64,000 nt of DNA, taken from contig OZ020267.1 in assembly GCA_963971225.1 (NCBI GenBank), positions 47,935,993 to 47,999,992 of the forward strand. Reading direction: 5' to 3'. Made by a program: the position numbers and the translations under genes. Positions 18,125-61,086 of this stretch are shown one piece after another. Numbering within the stretch: the stretch's first letter is position 1; every line of letters begins with the position of its first letter. The DNA is from Melieria omissa. Lineage: Eukaryota; Arthropoda; Insecta; Diptera; Ulidiidae. Below the pieces are notes generated by a model. It saw only the letters and a program-made list of their open reading frames with translations, was not told the DNA's origin and made no database searches.

Positions 18125-19413
18125 ACACTTCGTTCAATAATGTGTGTGACTGACACATAGATGGCGGCACTAATACTAAATCAATATTTTTTTCGAAATT
18201 GTGAACCTTTTTAGGCTTACTGTCAAAAGTATATGTCAATCCGACCATTAGTTTACAAGTTACAGTGCTTTAAGTGACACTACTTTTGAGTTTTCAAAAA
18301 AAATGAATTCAAAGCAATTCCGTGTGCTGATTTATCATTGTTTTTTAATGAAAAAAAATACTGTTCAATGCCAGGAATGGCTTGAAAAACATTATTCGGA
18401 CTCTGCTCCATCAAAAAGAACCATTTGTTATTGGTATGCCGAATTCAAACGTGGTCATACAGACACCGATGACATTCCATCTACTGGACGGCCAAATGAC
18501 GCTGTTATTCCGGAAAACGTTGAAAAAACACTGAAAATCATTATGTCCGACCGTAAAGTGAAAGTGGGGAGATTGCTGACATTCTAAAGATATCAGCAGG
18601 CAGTGTACACACCATAATACACGAACATTTGGTTATGAAAAAGGTGTTTTCGAAATGGGTGCCGCGTTTGCTCACACCGGAGCAAAAACAACAACGAATC
18701 GATGATTCAAAGAGCTGTGGACATGTTTACGCGCAACAAGTCGGAGTTTTTGCATCGGTACATCACAATGGATGAAACATGGATCCACCATTTCACTCCA
18801 GAGTCAAATCGGCAGTCTGCTGAGTGGCATGCAACCGGTGAAAGCCGCCCAAAGCGTCCAAAGGCACAAACATCGGCTGGCAAGGTTATGGCGTCAGTAT
18901 TTTGGGATGTGCACGGAATAATATTCATCGACTATCTTGAGAAAGGGAAAACAATCAATAGCGACTATTATATAGCGTTGTTGGAACGTTTGAAAGAAGA
19001 AATCGCGATTAAGCGGCCCCATATGAAGAAGAAAAAAGTGTTGTTTCACCAAGACAATGCACCGTGTCACAAGTCGATGAAAACGATGGCAAAAATGCAT
19101 GAATTGGGCTTCGAATTGCTCCCTCATCCCCCGTATTCTCCAGATCTGGCCCCCAGCGACTACTGGCTCTTCGCAGACCTCAAAAAGATGCTCCGTGGTA
19201 AGAGATTTGGCTCAAATGATGAAGTAATCGCCGAAACTAACGCCTATTTTGAAGGCAAAGAAAAATCGTTCTACAAAGGCGGTATCGAAAGATTGGAAAA
19301 GCGTTGGAATGATTGTATCTCCCTAAAAGGGGACTATGTTGATGAATAAAAACGAATTTTGGCAAAAAAATTTGTTTTAATTAGTTAGTCACACACATTA
19401 TTGAACGAAGTGT
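18125..19413 (+). mobile_element. mariner element, irritans-type, copy 1
   Basis: Terminal inverted repeats are ACACTTCGTTCAATAATGTG at the left and its inverse at the right, flanked by TA on both sides (18123-18124, 19414-19415). The length, about 1.29 kb, is standard for mariner. It sits inside the LTR 17971-19708, so it is younger than that LTR. Confidence 0.92.
18303..19349 (+). pseudogene. Irritans-subfamily mariner transposase, frameshifted
   Basis: The transposase normally has a helix-turn-helix DNA-binding N-terminus and a D,D34D catalytic domain. The start [14 protein letters not shown], the linker [18 protein letters not shown] and the catalytic motifs [24 protein letters not shown] and [13 protein letters not shown] are all present, close to Himar1-like proteins. 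Compared with copy 2 it lacks one G in the G run near 18568 and two bases near 18717 (AGCTGTGGAC versus AGCTGTTTGGAC). The region between is therefore out of frame, while the catalytic half is open (18702-19349). The protein is not functional as written. Confidence 0.9.
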
Positions 19414-29866: not shown

Positions 29867-29929
29867 TTATTTGAGGAGCTGATGAGCCCTTTGATTCGCC
29901 ACGGCTATCCTCGCTTCGTTTGATTCTCC
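29867..29929 (-). CDS. Snap25: Snap25 last coding exon
   Basis: Acceptor TTTCAG, then 20 codons reading [20 protein letters not shown] and TAA at 29869-29867. This is the C-terminal end of the second SNARE helix. It joins in phase 0 to the exon ending at 31611. Confidence 0.95.
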   Translation of the reverse strand, partial: GESNEARIAVANQRAHQLLK

Positions 29930-32900
29930 CTGAAATCAGTCAAAGAAAGCGCAAGCATTTTATATGTGTAGTAAGAAAATATCAATGTACACATGTACAC
30001 ACAATACATACAACTAGATTAGTAAAGGTGCCGTCAGATTATGCAAGTAAAGTACTTTTGGGATGTGATCGACAGTAATTTGTGAGTACTTCTTGCTTTT
30101 CAAAAAACAACAAAAAGCAGAAAAGAGGCTTTCCAAAAATATTTTGTGGCTAGTCACAGTATGCAAGTCCAAGCAATTTCGCGAAATACTTTTTGAAAGT
30201 AATTTGCGAATGTGTGCGTTATGACGAAGCTGTCATTTCTGCCTAACATTGTTGACTTAGTTTTGCGGTTTTGGCATCGCGGCGTAGAAAATCCGCAAAT
30301 TTGGTGAGGGGCCTGGGCGCACAGGAAATTAAGCACATGACACTTAGGAGAAATTTGTGTTTTTGTGTGACAAAGTGCGACCACTCGTCCAGAAGTGAAA
30401 TATACCAATGCGTGTGCCCATCACCGTGGAAAAAAGAGTTGCACTGACGCTGAAATATCTTGCAACTGGCCACACCCTGCCGGCAACTCAACTAACTTTT
30501 AACGCACTTTAATCTAACTAATTCTCAACCAGTTGTGGTTGATAGTTGGATTATTTTCAATGGAGCCAATTGACTATTTTAACATTGCGATGGCCTAGGC
30601 AGTAGTCAATTGTCCGACTATGCATGACTTTTCAACTAACTTAAAGTTAGTTGCTTAAAAGTTAGCTAAAAGTTATCTAATTTACGGTTAGCTATAAACT
30701 AGTAACATTGCAGTTAGCTACAAGTTGATTTTATTTAAATCAGCTATAACTCAACTATTAGTTAATACGTTGCAGTTAAATCTTTATCCATAAAAATGAA
30801 TGTTTGTAGGATTGTTTTTAAAATTTAAAATTTTTTAATTTCCTTTTTAATTTGAAAAATATGTACATATAATGTATTTCGATAATCAAAATAATTAAAA
30901 TACCAATCACTGATTTTTTTTTAAATGTTTTTTTTGTTGGACATTGCTAACACTTATATTTTCAAAGTAGTAGCTGCAGCTACAACACGCTATTTTCAAG
31001 TGTTTCCAATGTCGCGGACATCTGTCGGCCGCTGTCACCGATATTTCATAAAAATTTCAATTCGAACAGCTGCCGGATTGTTTGGAAAATTTCAACACCT
31101 GAAAAACTTGCTAGTGTCAGCAGCATGTGACAAGTATTCCCAAAAATTCATTTGCTTTCAAAACTGAGCAGTCACACTATTCAAGTTCTGTTTTTAAAAA
31201 TATATTCAAAACAGTCGAAAAGTGAACTTACTTTTGATGGTCACACGTGCAAGTTTTGTTTTATGAATTTGAAATGCCTTCAAACAGTACTTTATTTGCA
31301 TAGTCTTCCGATACCTTAAGAATAATAGAAATAATAGATACGCTGCTTATGTGCATGCTAAGCTCAATTAGCTCAAAGTCCACTGATCATTAATTCATAT
31401 TTAAATGTTTTATTTCTGAAAATTGATCGATTGTTCACAACCCATGCTGTAGTGCAGAGCATGGACTATGTAAATAGAAGAAGGGTTTAATTATATAAAG
31501 TTTGTTTTTATAAGTTTGGCAATTGATATTAGCATATACATATGTAACTGCGTATGCTTTCAGTTCCACAAAGCGAAGCGTGCGTTTATATATAAAACGT
31601 TTTAAGTTACCTTTCGATTTATTCTGTCAATTTGTCTGTTCTGGTTCTCTAATTCTGATCCCATATCCAGAGCCATGTTTCGTAAATTTCCAATCATAGT
31701 ATTCACTTGGCCCATGTTTTCTTCCATTTCATCTTCTCGGGCATCATTTGTAATTCTATAAACAATTATTAAACACAACACAACGTCAGAAGTGACTGGA
31801 TTGGTATTTTTAAGAATCATATTTATAAAACAAAATACGTACAACATTTAAGATTTACCATCCCTAATAAGACTTAATGATACTGTGATTGTGTTGTTAT
31901 GTAGTGGTTCACTCTATGACGCGATATGTTTTGTATAAATTATTTGTTATGTATGTATGTTATGGCATTAAATCAAAAGCGATGGTTATAAACATCAGCA
32001 GCGAAATAGACTCATAATAAGTGGTGATTTTTATGTCCAAAACATATATTCTGGGGATCCAGAATGTAGAGACAATCAAGTATACACTAGGAAACATTTC
32101 ACATGGAAACATGCTATTGGAAACACATCATAACATAAATGTTCCTTGTTATTCGGAAACATATTTTCAGTACCTTGTACACTAGAAATAAAAATCATCG
32201 GAAACACGTTGCCGGAAACAATTTATAATGTTTCAAAGTTCTTCCCCTACGATGTTTCCGATGTTTCTAACCCGGTATGTTTCTGGTCTTTGTACACTAC
32301 GTCATTGTACAATGTTGTTGAAAACATGTGGTGCTTGATTTCAACGTTTGAAATTTGTTATTGTATGTCGGTGAGTGAAAAAATATTGGCAAATACCTAA
32401 ATGAAAACGGAATAAACAAATTATTTTCAGCAGTATATACTCTGTATGCAAAAAAAGAAAAGCGAAAACGACGTTGGTGGACAAGACCTTGCATTCAACG
32501 TCGTGACGCTGAAGGATTATGCGCCAAATTACTACGAGAACTATCCACGGAATATTCGATCCAGTTTTCGAATTTTTTAGAATGTCGACTCGTCGAAGTC
32601 AAGTGAGAGTTTCAATCGAATTAATTACACTGGACAACAGCATGTCTGTTGCATAAAGATTTTTACATGAATCTGAATAGTTTTTCCACGCTGTTTTCAA
32701 AACCATATTCCGTTTGTATGTAACAGCTCTAGTTTTCGTAAAAAATGGGCGTGTAATTTTTTCGAATTTTCCTCGACTTTTTCACGTTTTCAATTGTAAT
32801 TTCTCATCTCACGCCTTCTTCTCTGACATTAATAAATTTTATGCGTTCTAAATTGGCGTGTTAAAAAGGTTTCAAAGTAGGAAAATATGAAATTTAAAGG

Positions 32901-35900
32901 CGAAAATTGTACATATGTTTCATAAATCAACTTACGAAGTGTATGAATATCTTAAGAAGAAACATCATGCAATACAACTGAGGCAGCATTTTTGGCGGAA
33001 TACTAATTAGCATCGAAATAATACCAAAATGTGTTTATGCCAATTTCAACACTTTTCAGCGATTTGTCAATGATTTACGTAAAAACAAAGGCCTTCAAAA
33101 TATGCAAAGTTTTTGTTTTTATTTGCCACCGCTTGCCAAACCGAGAGCTTATTTCCGCATGACTCGTGCTCAGGGCTGGAAACGTTCCAAAGGGAACGGT
33201 GTTCCACCGCAGAAATAAGTTCGGATTGGCATCCATCGCTCCAATCAAACAATTCGCTCGCAACTCGTTGACTCTCGCTGAAGTCGGGGAGGATTTCCTC
33301 CCCGATTTTTAAACAGAACATTGTGTGTGTAGAATTTTAGGTTTTGCGGAATTTATAATTACGCAGAACATTGAAAGAAGATTGCTATACAACCCAATCA
33401 CTACTTCTTATGTGAATTATACAATTTTATATATACCTTCCAATGTATCCTGCTTGCGCCATCATTCCATTTCTATCATCCATTACTCTTTGCGGCTGAT
33501 TATTAACAACTTTTCCATCATCATTGCCTTTCCATGTTCCATCATCTTCTTTGAAAGATTGACTCCTTAATAAAAGAGGAAATAAATATTGCAAAAAAAA
33601 AGTGTCAAATTAATGCGTTTAATTTAATGCGCCAAAAAATATAAAAAATGTCCACAAGAAACATGCGATACCACAGCAATATATATAAAATAGAATAGGT
33701 GAGATTTCAGGCTATGCAAATAATGGCCAAATCGTCAAAGGAAGAGAAATTAATACCTAACCAAAAATTATAAGGAATCGTCGCCCAAAATGTATAGAAA
33801 TTATAATCGGAAGTTATTAAATCTATCCAAAATAGTTGAAACCAAAATTAGAAAAAAAAACCACTTTCCCTCGAGAAAAGACTATATGCACTCGTACAAA
33901 ATTTCGCTTGAACTCAGAACATTTACTGCAGCGTAAAAACTTGAAGGCTCTCAGCAACCTCTTGACGACATGTTGGACATGAGTATTTAGCGTTGCCGTT
34001 TGCTAACCTCTGAGCCAGCAGTTTAAGTTCGTGTTTATTGCAATTTCACTAATGCTTGCATGACAACAAAACAGTATCTGAGCGGCAATTTATACCAAAG
34101 ATAAAGATTTTGATCAATTTCTTCTCAATCATTCAAATTCCCTTGGGCCTCTTCTGTGTTCGGTAATGCCACAAATATAAGTGTAATTTAAGAAAGAATG
34201 CTTTTTTTTGAAACAAACTATTTCGTCCAAAAACACCTGTGATGTGATCAATTCATTTTTAAGAAGACCCAAACCTTCAAATATTTTCTTACTTTTTTCA
34301 ACAATTGATAAGAATAAGTGAGAGGTTTCTACCTTCTATAAATGGTTCGTCCTGAAATACTTTAACAAATTGAAAATTCTTCCCATTGTTTTCAACGAAG
34401 AGTCCTAAACCCCCTAAACCTAAAAAAAAAAAATAAAAAGGTACCAAAAATCATAATCATACAACTTTAGGTCGAAAATTACGTCTAGACGAGCAAGCGG
34501 CGCGGGATGCCGTGGGTGGTACGGAAGGAGGCGAGTGGCGTGTAGCGGGCAAGCAGCATTTGGCGCTTTATCGGAAAATACGACCCGTGGCGCCACGTCG
34601 CTCCGGCGACACCTTTTTACGTCGCAAAACACACATACTAACACAATTGTATAATCGCACTTCTTACTCTCAAGTAGGTAAAATAATATTTATACTGTTA
34701 TTTTTCATTTTATAAAAAATACATAAATAACTGCCCACAAGTCCGAAATGACCGATCATAAATTTTTTTTAACTTTGGACGATTGTTCATTAGGATTCAA
34801 CACCCAAAATTCAAAAATGAGTTTTTGGGTCATTGTCTATTTTTGTGCCTTGGGCGATTATTCGCAAAGCCATGATATCACTTCTTATGCCCCGTTCTGA
34901 CTATGTCATATATGGTGTCATATTCACTGACGACAAACACTGCCATATATGTCATGTTCGTCCTATGTCGTCAAATGTGTTCTCATTGCACGGCAAAACT
35001 GACCAAAAATACATATGACAAAGTTTGCCAGCATGTTGACATTTTTGGTTTTCTCATCAAATGTAGTCAAATCGTTTGTTCGACACATTCGATCGTTCTC
35101 ATTTGATTGTCGTTTCGTATGGCAAATTGTAGTCATACATGCAGGCAAACGCAAATGACACCATATGACAACCCGTTCTCATTTAACTGACTACAAATGA
35201 CACCATATATGGCATAGTCAGAACCGGGCATTAGAGTTTTTAAACATACATAAATTTCAAATATGCTCAAAAGTGCGTTTTATCAAAAATAATCATTTAA
35301 TGCTAAAATGTACAAGATATACATTAATTTGTTACGAAAATTTGCGGAACATCACGCATTAAGCTAAATTATTTTAAAATTTTCATTTTTAGCTAAAGTA
35401 TGCACACTCAATAATATGTCTCATAAAAAAGCTTTCTCGATTCGTTAAGATAATATTTTATCAGTTCCGTGTTAAGCTTTATAAATGAATTTAAATACAT
35501 ACTTAGTTTTCAAATAGGGCATATTGACTGTATTTTTAATTTAATTTGAACTGCTATTAATCTGCATAGTTATGTTATGTTATGTTTGCTTACTTGTTAC
35601 ATGGCAGCACACAAATACCGCAACATTTTTCCATTCCACTTAAATTTTTTTCTGCCTCTCTCATATCGGCATTAATTTGGTCCATACCCTCTTCAATCCG
35701 GTCCAGTTGCTCTGAAAATAGAAATAAGAATATTTAAGTTAGTAAATATACCTACATGCTATTCTCCAAATTATGCCAAAAATAAATCGGGATTTTCGAA
35801 CTTAAATTCGACATTACTCTTACGGTCACAATGTTTGTGGTAACGTCTACTTTGCAAACTCAAAACCAACATTTTTATTAATAATTTTATTCAATCAGCT

Positions 35901-38900: not shown

Positions 38901-41900
38901 TTGTATTTAGTGTTAACCCTTTACACGGCAACAGCGAATTTTTTTATCAAATGTTGTTTTTTTGATATAAACCTAAATTTGCAAAAACACGTATTTTTTT
39001 ATTTTTTAAAACACTTTAATTTTGTAAGGTTTTTTTGTAAAAAACATTAAAAACAAAAAAAAACAAAAAGCATTAAAACTTGTTTTTTTATTTTTATATG
39101 TTTAGTTTTAAATGAAAATTTTGAAAGCAATTAATGCGTTTGTTGTAGCATAGTCCTACTCCGCATTTTTCGCAACGTGTTTGTGTGTTTTTTATTGATA
39201 AGTTTTAATCACTTTTGTTTCACTAAAATAAATGCGTGCAACTTTTCGCAAAAACGGTCAAATAAGTGCCGTCAAGTAAAATTTAGCTTCTTTTCCCACG
39301 TTTAATGCCAGTGTTTCAAAAAAGGAACCTTGCATAGTTGTAAAATCGCAAGAAAGAGTCGTTTTGATAGTTACTTCCGAAATTACGGGCAATTTTACGG
39401 GGGGTTGCAGATATGCAACTGTACCGTGTAAAGGGTTAAGTCGGGTACGATCATCATTAGATATAAGATTGCAAAAGTGCATTGACAAATAAATTAAACA
39501 CAACGGCGAATGTAGTATTTCACGAAGTAGTACAATGCAAAAAGTATATATTACATTTTAGTTACATAAACGAAATGGTAGTTTTTTTTACACCCGAATT
39601 TCGGGGGTTCAACTAGTTAAATTTAATTGAAATAGAATGAAAATTCAGATTAGTGAAAAAATAAGTTGTATGTTTGATTGACGGGCATATAAATAAATTT
39701 GTTCGGCTAGGAACTCTAAAAACTAATTGGAAGCAAAATATTGAAAGCAATTGAGTAGCGTTTTGAGATTAGTCAGATCAGCGGGCACTTCTTTTTTACC
39801 ACGAAAGACAATTTCGTTCACATGCAATTGAAGATTTTTCGTTTTACAAATCATTGCTTTGAATTCAAGGGAAACATTGTTCATGCCGATGAAGAAGCGA
39901 CCACATCATTATCAAAATCACTAATTTTGCTAAGGTTTATGCTCCTAATTTCTGTCAAATTCGAGCAGTCATTAATCAGATCGCCCATATCATCAAAAGA
40001 ATGATGGGGATTAATGTCATCATCACTTTCAAAATCCTCTCCTTCACTAAGTAGTTTCAATGCCGGAGCATATTGGATTCATCAATTCTTAAATCTAGGC
40101 CTCCTACATGGGGGACAGATTATAAAGTTCCTTACGGCGTGACATAACTAATTACAACCAACAAAGTTACATTTAGTGAATATTGCAAAAAAAATACACT
40201 AAATCAATAACACTTCGTTCAATAATGTGTGTGACTGACACATAGATGGCGGCACTAATACTAAATCAATATTTTTTTTCGAAATTGTGAACCTTTTAGG
40301 CTTACTGTCAAAATTATATGTCAATCCGACCTTTAAGTGACACTACTTTTGAGTTTTCAAAAAAACTGAATTCAAAGCAATTCCGTGTGCTGATTTATCA
40401 TTGTTTTTTAATGAAAAAAAATACTGTTCAATGCCAGGAATGGCTTGAAAAACATTATTCGGACTCTGCTCCATCAAAAAGAACCATTTGTTATTGGTAT
40501 GCCGAATTCAAACGTGGTCGTACAGACACCGATGACATTCCATCTACTGGACGGCCAAACGACGCTGTTATTCCGGAAAACGTTGAAAAAACACTGAAAA
40601 TCATTATGTCCGACCGTAAAGTGAAAGTGGGGGAGATTGCTGACATTCTAAAGATATCAGCAGGCAGTGTACACACCATAATACACGAACATTTGGTTAT
40701 GAAAAAGGTGTTTTCGAAATGGGTGCCGCGTTTGCTCACACCGGAGCAAAAACAACAACGAATCGATGATTCAAAGAGCTGTTTGGACATGTTTACGCGC
40801 AACAAGTCGGAGTTTTTGCGTCGGTACATCACAATGGATGAAACATGGATCCACCATTTCACTCCAGAGTCAAATCGGCAGTCTGCTGAGTGGCATGCAA
40901 CCGGTGAAAGCCGCCCAAAGCGTCCAAAGGCACAAACATCGGCTTGCAAGGTTATGGCGTCAGTATTTTGGGATGTGCACGGAATAATATTCATCGACTA
41001 TCTTGAGAAAGGGAAAACAATCAATAGCGACTATTATATAGCGTTGTTGGAACGTTTGAAAGAAGAAATCGCGATTAAGCGGCCCCATATGTAGAAGAAA
41101 AAAGTGTTGTTTCACCAAGACAATGCACCGTGTCACAAGTCGATGAAAACGATGGCAAAAATGCATGAATTGGGCTTCGAATTGCTTCCTCATCCCCCGT
41201 ATTCTCCAGATCTGGCCCCCAGCGACTACTGGCTCTTCGCAGACCTCAAAAAGATGCTCCGTGGTAAGAGATTTGGCTCAAATGATGAAGTAATCGCCGA
41301 AACTAACGCCTATTTTGAAGGCAAAGAAAAATCGTTCTACAAAGGCGGTATCGAAAGATTGGAAAAGCGTTGGAATGATTGTATCTCCCTAAAAGAGGAC
41401 TATGTTGATGAATAAAAACGAATTTTGGCAAAAAAATGTGTTTTAATTAGTTAGTCACACACATTATTGAACGAAGTGTTACTAATACTGAAATGCACAA
41501 ACAAATTTCACTTGGCGTCCCAGCTCGGCCTACAGACGGCCTCACGAAATCTTTGAAATACACTTCAGAAAATCAGTTCCAAAAGTACACGATAAAGAAT
41601 AGTTAAATTTACTTACAAATAATTTCTTTCTTTCGGTACGATAAGAGATTTTATTTTAATTTTTGCAATATTTCCTATTCGACTGAAAATTTTAAAACGT
41701 CCTATTTCGGCAAATTCGAACTTTCAAATGATTTAACTGCCAAAAACACGTGCCGTAGCTACGATTTGCGAAAATAGCTTCACTTGTGCTGTAAAGTATT
41801 TATGCTGACAAAAAATGGAAAATTAAAGAAAAAATAAAAGTAATATAGTAATAAACAGTGTTGTGACTAATATATTAAAGTAGTGTAACTAATTACGTAG

Positions 41901-44900: not shown

Positions 44901-47900
44901 ACTTTTTCAAATTTTACAGGAAAGACAAACAACTAAGTAAAAATAATTTATATTTATGTTTATTGTTTGGACTTTCTTTGCTCTGGACTTTGTGCACTTT
45001 TCCACGAAGCAAGACTTTTTCTTTTTCTCTCTTTTCATGCATGTTCCGCCGACTTATGACGACATTTTATGCCGTTATTTTTAATTTGTGCAAAGAGATT
45101 TGCGTACCTGAAAATGTAAAAAGCTTGTTTTTCAAATGCAGAATTTTTTTCAGAATCAAATTTTTAAACAAACTCAAAGAAAATGAACTTAAAAAAAACT
45201 TCTAATAAAAAAAAACTGTTGAAGACAGTAACATAACTAATTTGTTTCAATTTTTCCGCAAGTAGCTGGTACCGGACATGTTTTTTACGTCCGAAACTTA
45301 TTTTTGGCAGAAATATGAGCATTTTTATACTTTTTGCAAAGAAAAAGATACCTATTAAAGTTTTTCTGTCTATTGTAAAAACTTTATGCTTTTCAGTATT
45401 TTCTGTGCAGCCCTGCGCACGACTCCCATTCATAAGCACCTCTAATTTTTGTCGTTTGACATTCACATCTCATAGTACATGAAAAGTACTCTCCCTATCT
45501 GGCATACCTTGTTATTGTACCATGCAAGTGAGCATAGACGCAGCATTCGTGTTGCTATGATTCGCGCTCAGAGCATTGTGCTCTCATTTCAAGTGTTACC
45601 TCTCGTTGCCTACCCCCCGCATCCTAAAGAAGGGTGGCGATATCAGCACCCACATTCAAATGTTTGCTTGTACGTGATGCACACTCTTTATGTTCTATAC
45701 TTTTTGTTACAACATATTATTGACGGCGGCGGCTTCAGCAAATGAAACAACAATATTTCAACATCCAATATGTTATTGAAGAAGTTTTATATCTAAAACA
45801 AATTATGTTATTCACTACAGTACAGTATACTATTCACAACACAACATGAAGAATTTGCAATTGCATTAATGAAATAGAATATTTTCTTACCTCCTTGTTC
45901 ATCCAGCATAACAATGCTCCTCATTCCAACCTCCGCGCTCTAGATAAAAATATATTTTATGATTCATATTTTTATTTCAAAAAGCAATACAAAAAAAATT
46001 TTTGCAGCCAGTATTTACGTTTGATTTTGTATTTGTTTTGTAGTGGTTGTGTCCTTAAGCAGTGTTATGCAGATGAAAAACAGCAAAATTCTGGAAAAGT
46101 ATCTTAAAACGTTACCTCTGTACACTCACACATTGGTCGGATTTCATATAACTACTTAGTATATATAATTAAGTAAGATACTCGATAGTTATTTATGGTT
46201 TCATATCTTGATTTCATGTTATTTGAACTCATAATGGCAAATCGCATTATTTCGGCGTAATATACCGTTTAATATTTTGAAAGAACAAAGAATTTGGGTG
46301 CAAAAACTATTAAGACAATTCCATGCATGGTCTGCGAAGAAATATCTGTCCAACCTAATTGGACTATTTTCGATTTCCTCTAAGAGAACTGCTTGTAGCA
46401 ATCATTTGTAAAAGAATTAGATGTTTCAACAGATCAAAATCCATATTGAAGCAGAAAACAAAACCATGAATGAAAGAAATTTTCAATTTCAAAATATTTT
46501 TATGACGAACATGTGACTTTGACGTTTTGACGTAACGCGCTTATTTCGGAATGTCGCCTCACTCAGTTCTGTAGACAGAAAACGCAACACCGAACGTTCC
46601 AATTTGGGTTCGGCTCTTAATCATACATATTAGGGGGTGCAATCCCGAAATCTTGAGATCCCAGACAAGTTCAGTCCTGAAAAATCCTGGGACTGACAAA
46701 ATCCGACCTCAGGACCGAAACATAAAATAACTTAGTTTTTACTTTTGTTACTTTAATTTCGAAAAAGACAAACCTTGTTAATTAAACCAAAAAATAAACT
46801 GTCTGTGACGTTTGAATAAGTTTCAATGCAACAGCTTTGTTTGTGTACCGATACTTTGTACAAATTTGTACAAACTAGCTCTCTTTCTTTTTCTTACAAA
46901 ACCACATACAAATAAATTGTTATTATATAATAATAAAAGCAAATTTGTTATCACAGAAAAATTTATCCCCAGTAAACTTTAACAAGTAAAAATGAAATGA
47001 ACAGTAGCATTCAAGCAATCAGTTTATTTTTTACCTTCAATTAAATTTACTTGAGAAAACTTTCTTCTTTATCTTCAATTAAAATCACTTGAGAAAACTT
47101 TGTCCCTACTGTGGCGCTACTACTACTACGACGCAATTATACTACCAATAAATTGTTGAAGGAGCGGAAACATAATTTCATTAAGACCATTTGTTTTTCA
47201 AAAACATCCTCGAAAATTTCTCCAAATCAAGATTTTAGAAATTTTGATTTTAGTTCGAAATTTCGCAATGCTCACCATTCCGCTTCTAGAGCTTCTATAT
47301 TATCTTCTTTAATCAAATTTGGGAATATTTCCATCTGCGGTATTAACCCTTTCAATACTGCGGGGATATATAAGTCCCAGATAATGTCCAAAAATTACTG
47401 GTGCGAAAAGTATTCGCTTTTAAAGTGCTGGGATGGATTCAGCTGTACAACACACTTCGAAGAAATCACGTATTTTTAGTGGAGGCGTCACAACCAAATA
47501 GGCACTTAAAGGCAAAAAATTACTTCGGATTATGTTAAAACATACTTTTTTGAGTAATTCAGGGTTGAAACTAAAAAAGTGTTTTTTCCGTTTTTTAAAC
47601 TTTTTTCCACCAAACTTTTGGTTCTTTGTTAGAAGACAATTTTAAAGCACAAACCAAAAAATAGTACTGCCATACAGGAAAAATTCCAAAGTTTTATTTA
47701 ATATATAACATGAATATATTAGTACATAAATTCTATTTTTATTTGATTTTTCACTCAGCATGCAGAATTACCCACAAACTTGAAACGAATGCGTATTTTT
47801 TAACATTAACTTTGAAACTACATAAAAATGGAACGGAGTAGGATATTGAAGATCGGAAAAGATCGGATTTTTCTTAGTTGAGATATTATCTGTCCATTGT

Positions 47901-50900
47901 CATATTCATTTTAATCATTTTGTAACATTGATTTTTACCATTTTTGGCCACGACACTATGCGCTGCCGTGCAGGGCGCGCGGTGTGTAACTTTATTTTTA
48001 GTGTCCCTCTTTTAACGTGGAAGCTTATACATGAAACTAATTTAACCCGATTGTGCCAGAATTCTTTTTCCTTCAATTTTACCTAAAACATTTTTTTTGC
48101 GATTTAATGTGACGTGATTTGTGACGTGACGTGAATTGAAAAATTATATTTTTTATGCAATTTTAGTGAGATCATCTAGCCACATTACACGCGACTGGTT
48201 GGCCAAGCTACAACATTCTACAGATCTTCTCTCTCTAAAACAGAGCCCAGATCCAGGACTTGATCCAATTGCACGCATGTAAGAAGGCTGTGGCTGTTTT
48301 CGAGCGACTTCTGCCGCAGCAGCATGGACGTGGAAGAGGAGGAAAATACACTTCACCTTCTATGCACTTGTCCTACTTAATCCAGTTAGAAGAATAAACT
48401 AAATAGGCAATTTCTTATAGTCTAGGGGATCAAGCCGACAATACCATTTGCTGGTTTAAAGAGTAAGCGGTTTTCTGCTTGATCGCATGTGGTATCACAA
48501 TGGGCATTCATGGCCTAAGTGGGCTCCGCTTTGGGCCACGCCTATCTGCGTACTGAAAAATTGCTACAAGTTCGAACTCTTATAAATTTGAATCTTCCAG
48601 AAATTCGAACCTCATATTTTACAGCTTGAATGCTGTAAAATTCGAACTGGCGAATTCGAATTTGTGAGCGTTTGGCTTTATTTTCCTTGCACTAATTAAA
48701 TGAAAGAGTGGAATTTGTAATGTTTGGCCGCACGCACGTCAAATAAACTTAAAAACAATATTTGATGTTGGACGTTAAAATTTAAATTTTAAAAAAGTTT
48801 GTTGAAGGTGTACAGGCAAATCGCTTAGCTGTGGATTTATGGATAATATCGCACACCCACTTAAAAAGTGACACAACTCAAAATTTTCAATTTTCGGGTT
48901 TATGTGTTAATACTGTGCACAATGAATTTCTCTACCAATAATCAAAAGCTCAGTACATTTTGTTGTTGTTAACTGTTTTCAAAAAACAGTTAGATCTCTC
49001 TTCATGTCGAGAATTTTGATGCTATTTGATCGCTGCAGCTAAATGCAAAAGAGTCCTAATTCAAATTGTGGCACTTTTGTAGACATAAATACCTTTTGGA
49101 GTTAATTTTAAGTAATGTTATAACAATTTTAGTTTAATTAATTAATTAATTTTGTATTTGCAAAATTTGTCTTCTACCTTTTTACTATGTTGGTGTACCC
49201 TCATTAACAATACATACCTAATAATTTTGTTTCAATCACGTCCAGTTTTTTTTTTTGACAACTACATATTCATTTCTGACCTCATATACGTGTCTTTTTT
49301 TGAATAACTTCATTCATACGACTGTATAACTATTGCATTCGACTAACTTGCATCATATATACGTTTGTTACATCGTAAACATGCCACGAAAGTGTTCTAA
49401 CGACCCCGACAGTTTTTGTTATGTGTGTGGAGAATTAACTTTTAAATCTCAGCGTCGATTAATTGAACAGTGATATTAAGACTATTTTGGATTTCCTGTG
49501 AGGAATCAAGATAAATCCTGGGTTCCACATAAATGTTGTGTAATGTGTGTGAGACTGCTGTTAGGTTGGGCTAAACAAGAACCCTTTTGACTCAAACAAA
49601 AGGCATTATACAACCAAGTCCAAACACACTACCCAGTATCCAAACTTGTCTAAAACTAAACTTCCTTCAGTGCCGCTTGCTCATGATTCTGATATGAAAG
49701 AGACTTACGAAAATACGAGATTTATTCTTGAAAAAATTTAATACAGTAAACACGCTTGGTAAATTTTTGGCGATTTTTAAGGCATTACACTTTTGCTTGG
49801 ACTACAGCTTACACAAAATTTTGCTGTTTCATTTGCGAATGGGACAGTAGGGACAGAAAAAATCACTATACAAAGAAAGTGTGGCCCAAGCGTAAATCAT
49901 TCACTCCATAAAAATGTTAATAATGATCCTTTAGTTTGCCCTGATGAAATTCTTTTACCACCATTGCACATAAAGCTCGGCCTGATAAAAAATGTAGTAA
50001 AAGCTATGCCTAGAGATGGCAGTGGAATTGTATGTCTGAAATATAAATTCCCCAAACTCAGCGAGTCAAAAATTTAAAAGGAAATATTTGTAGGTCTACA
50101 ACAGGGGTCGGCCAAATTGACAATAAAATGGTGTTAGTGAGCGCAGTGAAATTTCTCTCCACTGTGTAAATTATGCCTGAACAATGGCTGATTGAGAGAG
50201 CGTACTGTGTATGTGTGCTGAGCGTACTGCTCATAAGAGCAGTGTTGCCAGATCAGGAGATTTCCTCCTAGATTTAGGAGATTTTTGACCATTTAGGAGA
50301 ATTTTGGTTAGGAGAAAGTTTGGGGAATTTATATTTTATATAAGGTGATTTTTCGGATCCTTAGTAGATTTTTGGATAACGAAGTATGATGTATTGGGAA
50401 CACTGGCAACAGAACGTATTTTGGCAACTATTTTAATAGTGAAAGTATCCTATTGTGTTAAACATGTTTAAGCTTACAAAATGTTGGCTCGTTCTATCTA
50501 GTTCTCACGTGTTGCTGTCACAATTAAACCGTCAAAAATTACGCTTTTTACACAATTTTACAATTTTAGGAGATTTTTTTAACTTTTGGGAGAATATTTC
50601 AATATTTTTTTTAGGAGGAAGTCATTTCAGCCATCTGGCAACACTTCATAAGAGTAAGCTTTGCCGACCGCTGGTCTACAAATACGACAACTGATAAAGG
50701 ATAAGAGCTTTGAAGAAAAACTGCATGATCAGGAAAAACTCGCCTGGAAATGTTTTGTGAACGTTGTCCAAAATTTTCTAGGAAACCATAAATCGGAAAA
50801 TTACAAAGACTTAATAAATGAACTTATAATGTCATATAAAGCTTTGGGGTGTAATATGTCTTTAAAAATACATATGCTTGACTCTCATCTGGATTTATTT

Positions 50901-52852
50901 CCCGCAAATTTGGGTGCTGTGAGTGACGAACAATGCATCAGGACATTTCCTTAATGGAGAAGCGCTATCAAGGGAAATGGAGCGCAGAAATGCTAGCAGA
51001 TTATTGTTGGAGACTTAAAAAAGACCTTCCAGAAACCAAATATTCACGAAAATCATAAGTATTTTTTTATATTAAGAAATAATTTCTCTAACTGTAGCTA
51101 ATGTTTGTACTTTTTAAGAAAATATATGTTTTGATGTCACAAGGAAAGCTGACGTGTAAATTTTTTTTACTCACATATTATTGTTTAGTGGCCCTAGTAC
51201 ATTAAAAATTTGATATAAGTTTTCATGTGACAAAAATAAAGTTAAAATTTTTTTAACCAGTGTTATTGAATTAAAATATGATCAAAACAGTCACAACTCA
51301 AAATTTTGTATGTTTTAGTGTAAAATTAAAAATAAATTACTGGACCTTATCCTAAAGCATAATCCGTAAGGATTTTCTACTAAATGGTCTATACGTTATT
51401 TATTCAGCGCAAAACACTTTTTTTGCGTTTTCTGAACAATTAAAAATTTTGAGTTGTGTCACGTTTGATGCAAATTTTAAGGGATTAATAAAAATAGATT
51501 CGTATGCGAACAAAATTTCTTAGATTTTTTAATGCGAAGAACAAATGGCATTACATTCAAGTTATTAGATGTAGTTTCAATATTTTTTTTACTTTTTCCA
51601 TAAATTAAAAATGTCCACTAATTCGAACATCTAAATAAAGATGCCTCGCTAAATTTCAACGGTGTCCGACTTACCCCCAGACTCCACTCCCCCACCATAG
51701 CCTATCGCCAAGTCATAGGGCCCCGAATATGGGGAGTTGATGAATAGAATGCGATTTTTAGTAAAAAAAATCAGTCAGTGGTTCTATTTGCCTCCAAATG
51801 TTTCCGGATGCCTGCTTGAATCAGCATTGCATGATTTTTCAACTAATTAGATTGGACTAATTTAAAACTATAGCTGTAACTTAACCAATTACAAGTTATT
51901 ATTTTGTACCTTGTTTTAAATAGTAATTCGTAGTTCGTTGAAAGCACGATCAACTAATTAAATAAATTTTTGGATAATCACCATCTATAAAAATCAGTGT
52001 TTGACTGTTTGCCCTTTATAGCCGCTGTGGCGAAGAAAATAATTTAGTGAGCTACACTAAAACAAAGTCAATAATAATCCGAACAATATCATTCTCAGAA
52101 TGTTCAGAGCAAAAACGCGGTTGATACAAAAACAAACGCGCTGAAGAACTGACGCGAGCCAACAACTTTTGTGTTTGTTGTAGTTGAGCCAATTGCAGTG
52201 CCAGATTCTTTACTATAGTACTTTACTATAGTACTTTACTATAGTAAAGGCCAGAATATATATATAACCAACACCAAAATATAAAAAATAACAAAATTTC
52301 TTTCGGTAGCAACCTTTAACGTGGCAAGCTTCTGAGAATAAAATTGTGATTAAAGAAGCTTCCATCTCGGCGTTCCGAATCGGTGTTAATTAAAGACTTT
52401 TTCACGGGTGGTTCCGGTCTTAGTCTCGTTATCGGGCTGTCGTGCCAGTTATGCATGTATGAAATTATTACCCACTATCGACCAATGAAATCGAAGAGAG
52501 TAATCCGACAACTCACACAAACTGCTTACGTATGAATAAAAATTAGCCTTTAATCCCGAAATATCCTAGTTTCCAATCGTATCTTGCCACGTTTCGTTCT
52601 ATCTAAGTATATTCTAAGTAGTATTCTCCATTTTTGATCGAACGTTATAAGCATATTACTAAATCGAAGTTTGATTTTCATTCCAATATATTTACAAAGT
52701 TTGTAAAAAATCATATATGTTGGTTAGAAGTGTTGAAATGGTGGTAAACTGTATTTTGTAATGGACTAGATTTATGTTAGAGTATGTGTAATAGTGAACT
52801 CACCTCCCTGATCATCCAGAGCTACTAGGGTACGAATCCCTGCTTCCTTACT
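29867..52852 (-). CDS. Snap25: Snap25: SNAP-25 t-SNARE, partial spliced gene (C-terminal ~166 residues)
   Basis: SNAP-25 is the Qb,c-SNARE of the presynaptic plasma membrane. With syntaxin and synaptobrevin it forms the four-helix bundle driving vesicle fusion. The gene here is the join (minus) of 52852-52804 or 45939-45891, then 35711-35594, 33565-33437, 31755-31611 and 29929-29867. Every junction is in phase (1, then 2, then 2, then 0 at the last junction) and has GT-AG sites. The product covers the end of the first SNARE helix, the palmitoylation cysteine cluster, the linker and the complete second SNARE helix with the stop. Exons for about 45 N-terminal residues lie beyond 64000. Introns run from about 1.7 to over 10 kb and are full of transposons. 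In Drosophila, Snap25 also lies in pericentric heterochromatin with long introns. The frame is intact throughout; I am very sure of identity. Confidence 0.95.
30025..31317. mobile_element. TIR element in last Snap25 intron
   Basis: The left end is AAGGTGCCGTCAGATTATGC, then AAGTAAAGTACTTTT. The right end reads inversely AAGGTATCGGAAGACTATGC, then AAATAAAGTACTG. The arms are about 33 bp with several mismatches. The centre (30485-30790) holds a second layer of GTTAGCTA/AACTAACTT repeats, partly shared with 51830-51950. No transposase is recognised. Confidence 0.6.
31611..31755 (-). CDS. Snap25: Snap25 exon: second SNARE motif
   Basis: Acceptor TTTATAG and donor AAG|GTAACT. One base completes an Arg codon, then 48 codons from [16 protein letters not shown] to QIDRINRK. 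This is the bulk of the Qc SNARE helix, with the ionic-layer glutamine expected within the heptads. Conserved without lesion. Confidence 0.95.
31756..32639. other. Snap25 intron with GGAAACA repeats
   Basis: At 32085-32290 the motif GGAAACA (or TGTTTCC) recurs about ten times, probably a degraded repeat. No other feature is supported. Confidence 0.4.
32640..33040. repeat. Unclassified interspersed repeat, copy 2
   Basis: Resembles 240-600: TTTTTTCGAATTTTCCTCGA, TTTTATGCGTTCTAA, and CATCGAAATAATACCAAAATG at the end. Non-coding. Confidence 0.4.
33284..33305. other. Perfect 10-bp hairpin
   Basis: TCGGGGAGGA and TCCTCCCCGA are separated by TT. A GC-rich stem in AT-rich intron DNA. Function unknown. 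Confidence 0.7.
33437..33565 (-). CDS. Snap25: Snap25 exon: inter-helix linker
   Basis: Acceptor TATTAAG, donor GGAAG|GTATAT. One base plus 42 codons plus two bases. Encodes [18 protein letters not shown], a [13 protein letters not shown] segment and MMAQAGYIG. This is the flexible linker between the two SNARE helices. Intact. Confidence 0.95.
33566..34440. other. Snap25 intron, no feature seen
   Basis: AT-rich intron sequence with no recognised repeats or reading frames. Confidence 0.4.
34460..34680. other. GC-rich patch in intron
   Basis: A short GC-rich block (34490-34625) with an open frame on the plus strand (34512-34715, [16 protein letters not shown] residues upstream). Composition differs from both sides, suggesting a retroelement scrap, but no family is recognised. 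Confidence 0.3.
34888..35230. mobile_element. PIF/Harbinger-type MITE with TTA duplication
   Basis: The left end is TGCCCCGTTCTGACTATGTC and the right end GCATAGTCAGAACCGGGCA, followed inside by ATATATGGTGTCAT arms of over 30 bp. TTA lies on both sides (34885-34887, 35231-35233). A TTA target duplication is the PIF/Harbinger hallmark. 343 bp, no ORF of interest. Confidence 0.75.
35594..35711 (-). CDS. Snap25: Snap25 exon: end of first SNARE helix and Cys cluster
   Basis: Acceptor ATTTTCAG, donor AACAA|GTAAGC. 118 bases: two bases completing Glu, 38 codons, two bases. Encodes [20 protein letters not shown] and, after [17 protein letters not shown]. The four cysteines in CCGICVLPC are the palmitoylation cluster that anchors SNAP-25 to the membrane. 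This corresponds to vertebrate exon 5, the exon duplicated in vertebrates; only one version is seen here. Confidence 0.95.
36061..36435 (+). mobile_element. Solo LTR, TGTTACGAAAATTAG family, copy 4
   Basis: Starts TGTTACGAAAATTAGTTCTG, ends ...GGCGAGGTCACA. Contains AAATATAAAACACACTAAAA, TTCAACGCA, CTCTGCGCTGAACCCGGCTG and CCTTTTATAC. No internal sequence flanks it, so it is solo. Located upstream (in transcript sense) of the Snap25 Cys-cluster exon. Confidence 0.7.
36495..36592 (-). mobile_element. SINE head fragment
   Basis: On the minus strand, GACTCAGCTGGCTAGTGCGT then TAAATGCGACGCTCGAGTC resembles the A-box head of the SINE at 59221. The body is missing or heavily diverged. Confidence 0.5.
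36666..36725. repeat. Isolated pogo/Tigger-like terminus
   Basis: TA followed by CAGTGGACGTCCAGTATAAC, then GAAC and TTTAACGA motifs, resembles a Tigger-type end. The partner end was not found. Confidence 0.35.
37172..37615. mobile_element. TTAA MITE, family C, copy 2 (one end truncated)
   Basis: Starts TTAA (37168-37171) then CCCATTGCTGCCGGGTACC, collinear in inverse with 23546-23985 through to CATGGGTAAAATTTTACCCA. The final 15 or so bases and the second TTAA are missing. Confidence 0.7.
37746..38160. mobile_element. TTAA MITE, family A, copy 3
   Basis: Ends CCCTTTCGCTACAGG and TAGCGAAAGGG. TTAA at the left (37742-37745) and TTAT at the right. Shorter than copies 1 and 2 through internal deletions. 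Confidence 0.8.
38164..39616 (+). pseudogene. Helitron: helicase C-terminal relic and intact 3' terminus
   Basis: Helitron helicase motifs are recognisable in order: [15 protein letters not shown] and [18 protein letters not shown] (38180-38460), then, after a degraded stretch, ARGKR-like [36 protein letters not shown] (38715-38845), and HGQLYLVL at 38893-38914. The frame resumes with [12 protein letters not shown] after an inserted MITE at 38917-39435. The 3' end has a CCCGAATTTCGGG hairpin followed by GGTTCAACTAG, the CTAG-type terminus of Helitrons, with T next. Multiple stops show decay. The rolling-circle Rep domain and 5' end are not present. Confidence 0.85.
38917..39435. mobile_element. 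TTAA-flanked MITE, family I, inside the Helitron
   Basis: A perfect 12-bp TIR, CCCTTTACACGG and CCGTGTAAAGGG, with TTAA on both sides (38913-38916, 39436-39439). It interrupts the helicase frame between HGQLYLVL and SRVRS, so it is younger than the Helitron. Confidence 0.85.
40210..41479 (+). mobile_element. mariner element, irritans-type, copy 2
   Basis: The same ACACTTCGTTCAATAATGTG ends as copy 1, flanked by TA (40208-40209, 41480-41481). About 1.27 kb. It is very similar to copy 1 but has a short deletion in the 5' leader. Confidence 0.92.
40366..41415 (+). pseudogene. Irritans-subfamily mariner transposase with start loss and nonsense
   Basis: Aligned to copy 1, the initiator ATG is CTG at 40366, although an in-frame ATG exists upstream at 40318. 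The frame is otherwise open through the helix-turn-helix region and both first catalytic blocks ([11 protein letters not shown]). It meets TAG at 41092-41094, where copy 1 has AAG. It reopens with [12 protein letters not shown] and [11 protein letters not shown] to the normal end. The D,D34D residues are present as codons, but the protein is truncated before the second Asp. The lesions differ from copy 1, so the two copies decayed independently. Confidence 0.9.
41825..42015. repeat. TAATATTAC-type repeat tract
   Basis: Degenerate GTAATATTACT and TAGTGTAACTA motifs, like the tract at 5128-5710. No gene. Confidence 0.4.
42070..42790. mobile_element. TTAA-flanked MITE, family H
   Basis: A perfect 16-bp TIR, GGGGGTCGTCTACGTA and TACGTAGACGACCCCC, with TTAA on both sides (42066-42069, 42791-42794). 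Inside, TTAGACACGAGCTTTTTG (from about 42358) is mirrored by CAAAAGCTCGTGTCTAA near 42500. 721 bp. Confidence 0.85.
42791..44689. other. Snap25 intron, isolated repeat ends only
   Basis: TTAACCCATTAGGGACCAACG at 43002 looks like another TTAA-MITE end without a found partner. AAGGTATATTAACAAGGTACG near 43517 resembles the TIR of the element at 44690. No exon supported. Confidence 0.4.
44690..45523. mobile_element. 834-bp element with perfect 24-bp TIR
   Basis: The left end begins ATGGTACAATAACAAGGTAT and continues GCCA; the right end is its exact inverse over 24 bases. No target duplication is evident outside, and no transposase. An unclassified non-autonomous DNA element. Confidence 0.7.
45891..45939 (-). 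CDS. Snap25: Snap25 alternative exon (divergent version)
   Basis: Acceptor ATTTTTATCTAG, donor GGAG|GTAAGA. 49 bases, 16 codons plus one base, reading [16 protein letters not shown]. It has the same length, the same phases and the same protein position as the exon at 52804-52852 (9 of 16 residues identical, others mostly conservative). Including both would shift the frame, because 49 is not a multiple of three, so they must be used one at a time. It encodes part of the first (Qb) SNARE helix. The VMLDEQG end resembles the vertebrate SNAP-25 sequence. Usage is inferred from structure only. Confidence 0.88.
45940..48159. other. Snap25 intron between alternative exons, repeat ends only
   Basis: TTAACCCTTTCAATACTGCG at 47345 looks like a TTAA-MITE end; its partner is not found. 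AGGGGGTGCAATCCCGAAAT near 46631 is another possible transposon end. No exon supported. Confidence 0.4.
48160..48560 (+). pseudogene. LINE 3' relic (Jockey/R1-like C-terminus and 3' UTR)
   Basis: Plus-strand text contains [15 protein letters not shown] at 48329-48375, matching the Cys/His motif near the ORF2 C-terminus of Jockey-, I- and R1-like LINEs (usually ETLxHxLxxCP). Degraded DQADNTI(C)-like coding and a 3' UTR-like stretch GGCCTAAGTGGGC follow. Stops are frequent. Only the last few hundred bases of such an element would be present. Confidence 0.45.
49381..51056 (+). pseudogene. Repetitive CxxC protein family ([18 protein letters not shown] type), decayed
   Basis: Begins [20 protein letters not shown], a start with a Cys pair that recurs in many repetitive, uncharacterised invertebrate proteins I have seen. 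[20 protein letters not shown] follows at about 49513-49575 after stops. A middle portion appears deleted: [11 protein letters not shown] is joined to [37 protein letters not shown] at 49972-50010 and KLSESKI are well kept. A hAT MITE sits at 50102-50673. The tail [20 protein letters not shown] and [18 protein letters not shown] then follow, ending near 51056. Its biochemical role is not known to me; a transposition role is only suggested by the flanking TIRs. Confidence 0.65.
50102..50673. mobile_element. hAT-type MITE with exact 8-bp duplication
   Basis: Ends CAGGGGTCGGC and GCCGACCGCTG, inverse over 11 bases with one mismatch. Exact duplication GTCTACAA at 50094-50101 and 50674-50681. The interior has repeated TTTAGGAGATTTTT and TTAGGAGAA motifs. 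It splits the reading frame of the CxxC family pseudogene; removing it and one duplication rejoins the region between GLSESKI-like text and the QIRQLI segment. Confidence 0.88.
51463..52208. other. Snap25 intron, repeat fragments
   Basis: 51828-51960 shares GCATGA.TTTTCAACTAA and AACTAATTA motifs with 30615-30790. No gene seen. Confidence 0.4.
52209..52247. repeat. 14-bp tandem repeat, nearly three units
   Basis: TACTATAGTACTTT repeated in tandem; each unit is itself palindromic at TACTATAGTA. Confidence 0.8.
52299..52452 (+). mobile_element. Diverged SINE 3' half
   Basis: TTTCGGTAGCAACC, GTTCCGAATCGGTGTTAAT, then TTAGTCTCGTTATCGGGCTG and TCGTGCCAGTTATGC follow the SINE body and tail order. 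The head is missing. Confidence 0.6.
52804..52852 (-). CDS. Snap25: Snap25 exon, canonical version of the alternative pair
   Basis: Acceptor CACACCAG, donor GGGAG|GTGAGT. 16 codons plus one base read [16 protein letters not shown], as in the standard fly SNAP-25 first SNARE helix. It joins to the exon at 35711 to complete Glu and continue QLDRIEEG. It is upstream, in transcript order, of the divergent version at 45891-45939. Confidence 0.94.
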
Positions 52853-59220: not shown

Positions 59221-59568
59221 AGGCAGCCGCCGTGGCTCAGTTGGTTAGTGCGCGGTCCAAGCGAGTCGCATGCAGAGCGACGCTAGTTCGAATTCTGCAT
59301 GTAACACCTTAGTAACACCTAAAAAAAAAATAACGGGAAACTCGTTTTCTCTTTCGGTGGCTGTCCTCTCAGCTGGAAATGGCAAACCTCTGAGAGTAAA
59401 AATTGCCTATGAAAAAGCTCCCAATCTGCCGTTCGGAACCGGCATAAAACTGTAGGTCCCTTCCACCCGCGTACAAAATTCACACGCACAACACGGGTGG
59501 TTGCGGGAAGCTAGGCCTTAGCCTCGCGTAAGCGGGCTGTCGTGCCAATCAATTATTATTATTATTAT
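59221..59568 (+). mobile_element. tRNA-derived SINE, full-length, perfect 13-bp duplication
   Basis: The head has A box TGGCTCAGTTGG (59232-59243) and B box AGTTCGAATTC. The body contains CTCGTTTTCTCTTTCGGTGG, AACTGTAGGTCCCTTCCACC and GGGCTGTCGTGCCAATCAAT, then an (ATT)n tail. It is flanked by exact TATTTTTGTCTCT at 59208-59220 and 59569-59581. The best-preserved copy, about 348 bp. An open frame inside is not meaningful. Confidence 0.95.
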
Positions 59569-59974
59569 TATTTTTGTCTCTTTTGCCAATGGAAATAAAT
59601 TTTTCAATAAAATTCTCGTCTGCGTTATGTTATTAATTAATCATTTATTTTTACAATTTTGCCAACATTTTGAAAAATTGCTAAAAAAAAATAGTTGCAA
59701 ATGCCTGTTTTCAAATAATTTTCGGTTAAAAAATGAACTTTTTGATATTTGTGCTGCCGTGGATATCCATTTTTTTGGTTCCAAATTAAACTGCAGCACA
59801 ACGTCCTGTTTCATGAGAACATTTGACGACATCTGTCATTTCTCGCACGTCAATTTTCATGGCTCTCCGTTCTAAGTCTCCTTGTTATCATGGTAGGTAC
59901 ATCATTTCACGCATTACACAGTAATGTACGATTCCTACATGCTAACTATTCGATTAAGAAAACATATATGCTTT

Positions 59975-61086
59975 TGGTATCTCTTCATCGATTACAAGGA
60001 AGCATTCGATAGTCCGATAAGGGATCACCTATATGCCGCATTGTCTGAACTTGGTATTCCTGCAAAGCTCGTGAGACTTTGCAGAGCGACGTTGAGCAAT
60101 ACGCACAGCTCCGTCAAGTTTGGAAGTGTCCTTTCCGATCCCTTTGATACCGTTCGAGGTTTCAGACAGGGCGATCCTTTGTTTTGCGACCTCTTCAACT
60201 TCACCATGGAGAGTGTTCTGCGCAAAGCCGGTGTACATCGCAATGGCACAATTTATAACAAAAGTGTCCAGCTCCTTGCTTACGCTGATGACATTGATGT
60301 CATCGGACGTAACAAGCGAGATGTCACCGCTGCCTTCGCGGCTATCGAAAGAGAATCTGCCAAAATGGGTCTGGTGGTAAATGAGGGCAAGACGAAGTAT
60401 ATGCTGTTCGTGTTGGTGACGACTATCGGATACGAACCAATAACGAGCTGTATGAGCTGTATAAGGACATGGACGTAGCTCAGCGAATTAACATCCAGCG
60501 GCTACGCTGGCTCGGTCATGTCTGCCGTATGGACGACGAAGCTCCGCCGAAAAAGGTGTTCGATGCGATGGAGGGAGGCCGTGTCTCCGGTGGAAGGTCC
60601 AAGTTGAAGAGGCCTTGTAATTTCTTGGTGTGACCAACTGGAGAATGAATTTAATAATTGATTGGCACGACAGCCCGCTTACGCGAGACTAAGGCCTAGC
60701 TTCCCGCAACCACCCGTGTTGTGCGTGTGAATTTGTACGCGGGTGGAAGGGACCTACAGTTTTATGCCGGTTCCGAACGGCAGGTTGGGAGCTTTTTCAT
60801 AGGCAATTTTTACTCTCAGAGGTTTGCCATTTCCAGCTGAGAGGACAGCCACCGAAAGAGAAAACGAGTTTCCCGTTATTTTTTTTAGGTGTTACTACAT
60901 GCAGTGTTCGAACTTGCGTCGCTCTGCATTCGACTCGTTGGACCGCGCACTAACCAACTGAGCCACGGCGGCTGTATGACCAACTGGAGAAGGCGCGCGC
61001 AAAACAGAGGCGCCTGAAGAGAAGTTTTGCGGCAGGCCGTAACCCAATAACGGGTTGTTATGGCCAGTTAAGTAAGTAAGTAAGTA
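59975..61086 (+). pseudogene. LINE copy 2: RT and C-terminal domain with 3' end, SINE-interrupted
   Basis: Starts inside RT (LFIDYKEAFDSPIRDHLYAA) and runs open through GFRQGDPLFCDLFNFTMESV and LAYADDIDVIGRNKRDV to 60478. It then lacks the section between YMLS and the GDDYRI region relative to copy 1, continues with the RWLGHVCRMDDEAPPKK domain near 60505, and is interrupted by a SINE at 60646. It resumes at TGACCAACTGGAGAAGG and ends GGCCAGTTAAGTAAGTAAGT, a TAAG-repeat tail. The catalytic YADD is intact. The element is truncated at its 5' end and has a large internal deletion. Confidence 0.85.
60646..60976 (-). mobile_element. tRNA-derived SINE inside LINE copy 2, perfect 15-bp duplication
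   Basis: On the minus strand: CAGCCGCCGTGGCTCAGTTG head, AAGTTCGAACACTGC B box, body and tail as in 59221-59568. Exact duplication TGACCAACTGGAGAA at 60631-60645 and 60977-60991. Near full length, and younger than the LINE. Confidence 0.95.

Follow-up and report, generated by a model that had tools for sequence, protein, structure and literature searches.

The Snap25 gene of the fly Melieria omissa was found to carry two versions of exon 4, both 49 bp long and both coding for the same part of the Qb SNARE helix, and it is very likely that they serve as functional mutually exclusive exons. A switch between them that is enforced by the reading frame and that retunes the meeting of the SNARE bundle with the calcium sensor is, in our assessment, probable, and the chance that it acts mainly through synaptotagmin coupling we put somewhat short of even. 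The exon pair itself is strongly supported, while usage in this species and the consequences for function are what we infer from the sequence. Such a switch is ordinary as a type of splicing but unusual with regard to the gene, the position and the age of the pair.

The window, by which we mean the whole stretch of 64,000 nucleotides that was analysed (G000:C1:47935993-47999992 of a 490-Mb assembly with 164 contigs), contains Snap25 exons 5 to 8 and the two 49-bp exons, all on the minus strand, the order of transcription being exons 2, 3, 4A, 4B, 5, 6, 7 and 8. Exon 2 (67536-67438, 99 coding bp) and exon 3 (65601-65560, 42 bp, ending in phase 0), given here on the scale of the window, lie past its right end and were not part of the first-pass annotation. 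Exon 4A (52804..52852, SKEAGIRTLVALDDQG) is entered in phase 0 and left in phase 1, with a CAG acceptor and the donor GTGAGT, and is separated by an intron of 6864 bp (45940..52803, from the exon coordinates) from exon 4B (45891..45939, SAEVGMRSIVMLDEQG), which has the same two phases, a TAG acceptor and the donor GTAAGA. These are followed by exon 5 (35594..35711, 118 bp, starting in phase 1), exon 6 (33437..33565, 129 bp), exon 7 (31611..31755, 145 bp, with the second SNARE motif) and exon 8 (29867..29929, 63 bp, stop included), the codon at the junction being made up of one base left by either 49-mer and two from exon 5. The first-pass annotation had placed both 49-bp exons correctly, and the strand, the passage from phase 0 to phase 1 and the intact AG/GT sites were all confirmed.

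When spliced in silico, the transcripts with only 4A or only 4B gave an open frame of 645 bp (214 aa and a stop), whereas the inclusion of both exons (694 bp) or of neither (596 bp) shifts the frame and leads to early stops, which bears out the earlier claim that joint use would break the frame. Equal length and phase, compatible splice sites and non-productive joint inclusion or skipping are what is expected of tandem homologous exons, and a conserved pair was also seen, at the protein level only, in 11 labelled taxa among the matches listed. The predicted protein has the two SNARE motifs and the cysteine linker of the SNAP-25 Qbc SNARE family, and isoform B could be aligned with a solved SNAP-25 chain (3j97_M) over residues 17-213 (E 1.8e-68).

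We propose that exon 4 was duplicated in tandem long ago and that the two copies are spliced mutually exclusively: each productive mRNA would have exactly one of 4A and 4B joined to exon 5, the frameshift would make double or zero inclusion non-productive, and which copy is chosen may be regulated by cell type. Both exons have ordinary GT-AG sites and the frame logic by itself makes mixed products non-productive; the gap of 6.9 kb between 4A and 4B argues against steric exclusion of joint splicing. Fifteen inverted-repeat pairs were found between positions 35500 and 64000 of this one genome, none of which, by our reading, clearly pairs the flanks of 4A with those of 4B.

Between 4A and 4B, 9 of 16 residues and 30 of 49 bases are the same, and the bases coincide at 24 of 32 first and second codon positions but at only 5 of 16 third positions, in agreement with the residue match and nucleotide divergence described previously. 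In order to judge how often such a resemblance may arise by chance, all open, AG...GT-bounded 49-mers in the locus of about 90 kb were scored against 4A: among 107 candidates on the minus strand 4A itself scored 77, 4B scored 49 and the next one -2, the best of 121 candidates on the plus strand scored 5, and the top score in 100 simulated sequences of 90 kb was 20. The resemblance between 4A and 4B is far beyond chance.

A 349-bp probe around 4B, for which only the best candidates were scored, revealed no further copy of the exon in the 490-Mb assembly, and its three other matches were all confined to its downstream intron part. A Snap24-like paralogue in the same genome (L001, C1:3221419), with an open frame of 210 residues that is 73% identical to D. 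melanogaster Snap25, belongs to the same family but has only the 4A peptide and is thus no source of 4B. In tblastn scans of the locus no convincing additional copies of the other Snap25 exons were obtained, and exon 5 was present as a single copy in the roughly 90 kb scanned.

The alignment with the solved chain places exon 4 at residues 39-54 of mammalian SNAP-25, a numbering which we assume and which agrees with published residue names, and the positions that we take to be layers of the bundle core are 39, 43, 46, 50 and 53. At these five, 4A and 4B are identical except for one T to S change; the full set of differences is K40A, A42V, I44M, T46S, L47I, A49M and D52E. Across the 69 distinct exon-4 peptides collected from relatives (see below), the core set is among the 4 least variable of the 4368 possible five-position sets, itself counted, under a parsing rule that needed Q at 53 and that led to the loss of only two records. 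Positions 40, 47, 48, 51 and 52, which form the interface set, had a mean variability of 1.64 bits, compared with 1.32 bits at the other non-core positions, an excess that was not significant (105 of 462 sets were as high). K or R at residue 40 is absent in all 26 distinct peptides with A or G at 44 (C-like, as defined below) and in 40 of the 42 with V42, the two that keep it being those of Dreissena/Pecten and of Strigamia; residue 40 is A, H, T or Q in 4B, and E or Q in 4C, often together with H at 52.

The relatives were collected by three protein searches, from which the best 120 of 358, 964 and 586 matches were pooled into 195 distinct records. A usable exon-4 peptide was present in 193 of these, P0174 (no recognised stretch) and P0176 (misparsed) being dropped, and by simple rules 81 of the matches listed are B-like, 69 A-like, 36 C-like and 7 of another kind, proportions which mirror the choice of queries in a sample shaped by B- and C-type queries. 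Many of the sequences are automatic gene models with "isoform X" names; P0005 (254 aa, longest contig 1183 bases) and P0059 (231 aa, 1028 bases), one of them B-type and the other C-type, appear to be transcripts, because their contigs barely exceed the length of the frame. Among the matches listed, the 4A peptide of this fly is identical in Drosophila yakuba, D. virilis, Megaselia, Copidosoma, Cloeon and others, and its 4B peptide recurs unchanged in D. yakuba, D. santomea and D. innubila, the first two being close sister species. The absence or decay of the exon in relatives, by which the first-pass annotation could have been overturned, was therefore not seen. The 4B-type peptide is STEVGMRTIVMLDEQG in Aedes albopictus and SHEVGMK(T/S)LVMLDEQG in beetles, moths, bees, aphids and a mayfly, and related forms occur among the matches listed in a gall midge, butterflies, thrips, a cricket and a stick insect.

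A third version, 4C (e.g., SEDVGANTLMMLDHQG), was found in Hymenoptera, Hemiptera, a cockroach, stick insects and mayflies, as well as in the nematoceran flies Bradysia and Lutzomyia, and Copidosoma and the mayfly Cloeon have A, B and C together. No 4C was found in the approximately 90 kb of this fly's locus with two C-type query peptides, the highest-scoring splice-bounded candidate apart from 4A and 4B reaching 11, on the plus strand; taken with the C-like peptides of the two nematocerans, this suggests that 4C was lost within Diptera. Outside insects, two exon-4 versions with identical flanks were present in five labelled mollusc genera, Pomacea, Physella, Babylonia, Mercenaria and Littorina (among the matches listed), the form in Limulus is SQDVGVKTLVMLDEQG, and the Trichoplax record, TQEVGMRTLVMLDEQG, is B-like.

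These versions belong to the same gene rather than to paralogues in most of the taxa concerned: for 9 of the 11 labelled taxa with several versions, at least one pair of the records listed shows no difference in the aligned sequence on either side of exon 4, as in Copidosoma (46/46 and 149/149 residues), the A and B records of Cloeon (44/44 and 152/152), Pomacea (40/40 and 156/156) and Mercenaria (44/44 and 156/156). The flanks are nearly identical in D. yakuba (46/46 and 131/132) and Aedes (46/47 and 40/40), and P0162, which holds the C version of Cloeon, shows 3 differences from the A and B records in 44 upstream residues and 1 in 152 downstream ones. Where one record holds two versions at once, A comes ahead of B in Aphis and Exocentrus and ahead of C in Cotesia congregata and Cloeon.

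Since mayflies have the pair, it is, as far as the protein records go, at least as old as winged insects. The earlier interpretation stands in so far as it recognised a frame-exclusive, conserved exon pair of the Qb helix beside the exon that is duplicated in vertebrates; its proposal that flies evolved the switch is contradicted by 4B-type peptides across insects down to a mayfly and by two-version genes in molluscs, and was wrong in timing. That the arthropod and mollusc pairs arose by separate duplications and converged, instead of descending from one ancestral pair, has a probability that we place only a little below one half, given that 16 residues hold little signal and that, of its 16 residues, the common 4B peptide of insects shares 13 with mollusc version 1 and 12 with version 2; a single ancestral pair is favoured by the combination of V42 without K40, which is common to insect 4B, the Limulus form and mollusc version 2. 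Judging from the B-like Trichoplax sequence, the missing K40 could be the older state.

The functional reading is based on interface data that are mammalian. A stapled peptide built on SNAP-25 residues 37-53, EESKDAGIRTLVMLDEQ, blocks calcium-triggered fusion via the primary interface between the C2B domain of synaptotagmin-1 and the SNARE complex; K40, D51 and E52 are named as contacts, and the same paper speaks of an interface conserved in all species (PMC8967716). An interface-breaking mutant published elsewhere combines five changes, including K40A (PMC9811660). Human K40E and V48F, two variants at the synaptotagmin-1 interface with a pathogenic or likely pathogenic classification, disturb evoked release while SNARE stability is not significantly reduced; G43R and L50S, in contrast, make the complex less stable (PMC10102358). 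Spontaneous release is increased with V48F and not significantly changed with K40E, which according to a modelling study cited in the same article is predicted to weaken contacts within SNAP-25 itself (PMC10102358). The core residues 43 and 50 are kept in both 4A and 4B of this fly. SNAP-23, which in mammals differs from SNAP-25 at or near the interface (K40Q, L47I, V48T) but does so through a separate gene, is still functional with Q40 in a synaptotagmin-2 system (PMC8967716), and neurons in which it replaces SNAP-25 show asynchronous release and more spontaneous events (PMC4244210).

With V48 and D51 the same in 4A and 4B and the charge preserved in D52E, the interface change in this fly amounts mainly to K40A plus L47I. 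Because exon 4 forms the outward Qb face on which synaptotagmin C2B docks, and because the buried residues are kept, the passage from 4A to 4B would alter calcium-sensor coupling and not bundle assembly. This narrows the earlier suggestion of "possibly tuning fusion" to the face of the helix that would serve as the synaptotagmin-1 primary interface. Since the interface positions were not significantly more variable than others, the synaptotagmin reading draws its support from what is known about the segment and about K40, and a change at residue 40 need not abolish docking, given the activity of SNAP-23 with synaptotagmin-2 and the conservation described for all species. A wider scenario, in which 4A keeps the docking face for synaptotagmin-1, 4B and 4C weaken or redirect it at positions also affected by the K40A-containing interface mutant and by human K40E, and splicing sets the balance of synchronous, asynchronous and spontaneous release, with such switching dating from before the divergence of winged insects and perhaps from the ancestor of protostomes, is offered tentatively and seems to us rather doubtful.

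The outward residues of exon 4 may be open to several partners, and the exons could be truly alternative while mainly affecting complexin, Munc18, disassembly by alpha-SNAP/NSF, or tomosyn. To this explanation, which we regard as unlikely though still of some weight, the predicted effect of V48F on alpha-SNAP binding (PMC10102358) and the absence of excess variability at the interface positions both lend support, but K40 is a named residue of the synaptotagmin-1 primary interface (PMC9811660, PMC8967716), and K or R is missing there from every C-like and nearly every V42 peptide, as counted above. It is very improbable that 4B is a poison exon which, when joined to 4A in one transcript, serves to disrupt the frame and reduce the dosage of SNAP-25: double inclusion does lead to early stops, and some gene models, such as that of Exocentrus, hold both exons, but 4B is conserved at the protein level, occurs alone in otherwise normal SNAP-25 records and has a conserved SNARE-core pattern for which a poison exon has no need. 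Slighter still is the chance that 4B is an unused relic of the duplication in this fly, considering its intact splice sites and phase, the identity of its peptide with that of three Drosophila species and the fact that 4A and 4B are far less alike at third codon positions than at first and second ones.

Exon 5 of the fly (118 bp) is presumably the counterpart of vertebrate exon 5. In vertebrate SNAP-25a/b, as in the fly, a duplicated exon in the Qb SNARE region of the same gene is used mutually exclusively, but there it is exon 5 (5a/5b) that is duplicated, whereas the fly pair represents exon 4, its upstream neighbour; its authors state that the exon-5 duplication was not described in Drosophila, and the available text nowhere uses the term "exon 4" (PMC2581893). 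Tandem exon pairs of comparable depth, arthropod- or protostome-wide, are found in cacophony (Cav2) and in a T-type calcium channel, which are likewise ancient and likewise belong to invertebrate excitability genes, but these are channel genes, and the words SNAP, SNARE and synaptosom are absent from the main text as available (PMC9741552). The microexon of vertebrate Snap23, by comparison, is an in-frame insertion of 11 residues and not a homologous exon pair (PMC12064062). Among the papers listed in searches of the open-access literature, none was seen to deal with Snap25 exon-4 alternatives, and a term search of the main texts of papers on microexons and mutually exclusive exons (PMC8042270, PMC3303723, PMC3228551, PMC3923563) found no SNAP names. 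Public protein records already hold the 4A, 4B and, for a number of insects, 4C isoforms, so that the same exon-4 peptides are on record for insects and molluscs without functional comment. Hatje and Kollmar reportedly charted the mutually exclusive exome of Drosophila in 2013, and Snap25 may be listed there.

SNAP-25 is part of the core release machinery, and exon 4 covers a face that has been described as conserved in all species (PMC8967716). If exon choice varies between neurons, nature would have been experimenting with residue 40 of the interface from the origin of winged insects onwards at the latest, and the exon-4 pair would be an old parallel to the neighbouring 5a/5b switch of vertebrates. 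The single-synapse physiology available in Drosophila is well suited to probing the synaptotagmin-SNARE interface in evoked versus spontaneous release.

Variation was also observed towards the 3' end of the gene. The C-terminal tails of the D. yakuba records P0002 and P0042 diverge after exon 7, which suggests further 3' alternatives or annotation errors, and the last coding exon, containing the end of the second SNARE motif, exists in two versions (e.g., KGMSNETRITEANKRATKILKEN and KGESLNSRVDNANKRANQILRNQ) in Pomacea (P0173/P0181), Littorina (P0167/P0168) and the gall midge Sitodiplosis (P0030/P0031). When this fly was briefly scanned with two other last-exon peptides, of which one had a partly wrong end, a second version was not found. 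On the plus strand, at window-scale positions 75461-75532 (L010), there is a short sequence similar to the end of SNAP-25 with an internal stop, DRLNVKGEHL*TRMDNWDKRVGDL, which may be due to chance or be a pseudogene fragment.

Several repeats were noted in the window. Near-identical readings at 41134-41265 and 19068-19199, two copies in the same orientation, are probably derived from a transposon. At 59224-60974 there are inverted arms of 37 to 155 nt with 90-100% complementarity, which lie on either side of a segment that overlaps a reverse-transcriptase-like reading (YADD, 60221-60352), and the outer arm, in our reading, resembles a tRNA-like promoter as in SINEs.
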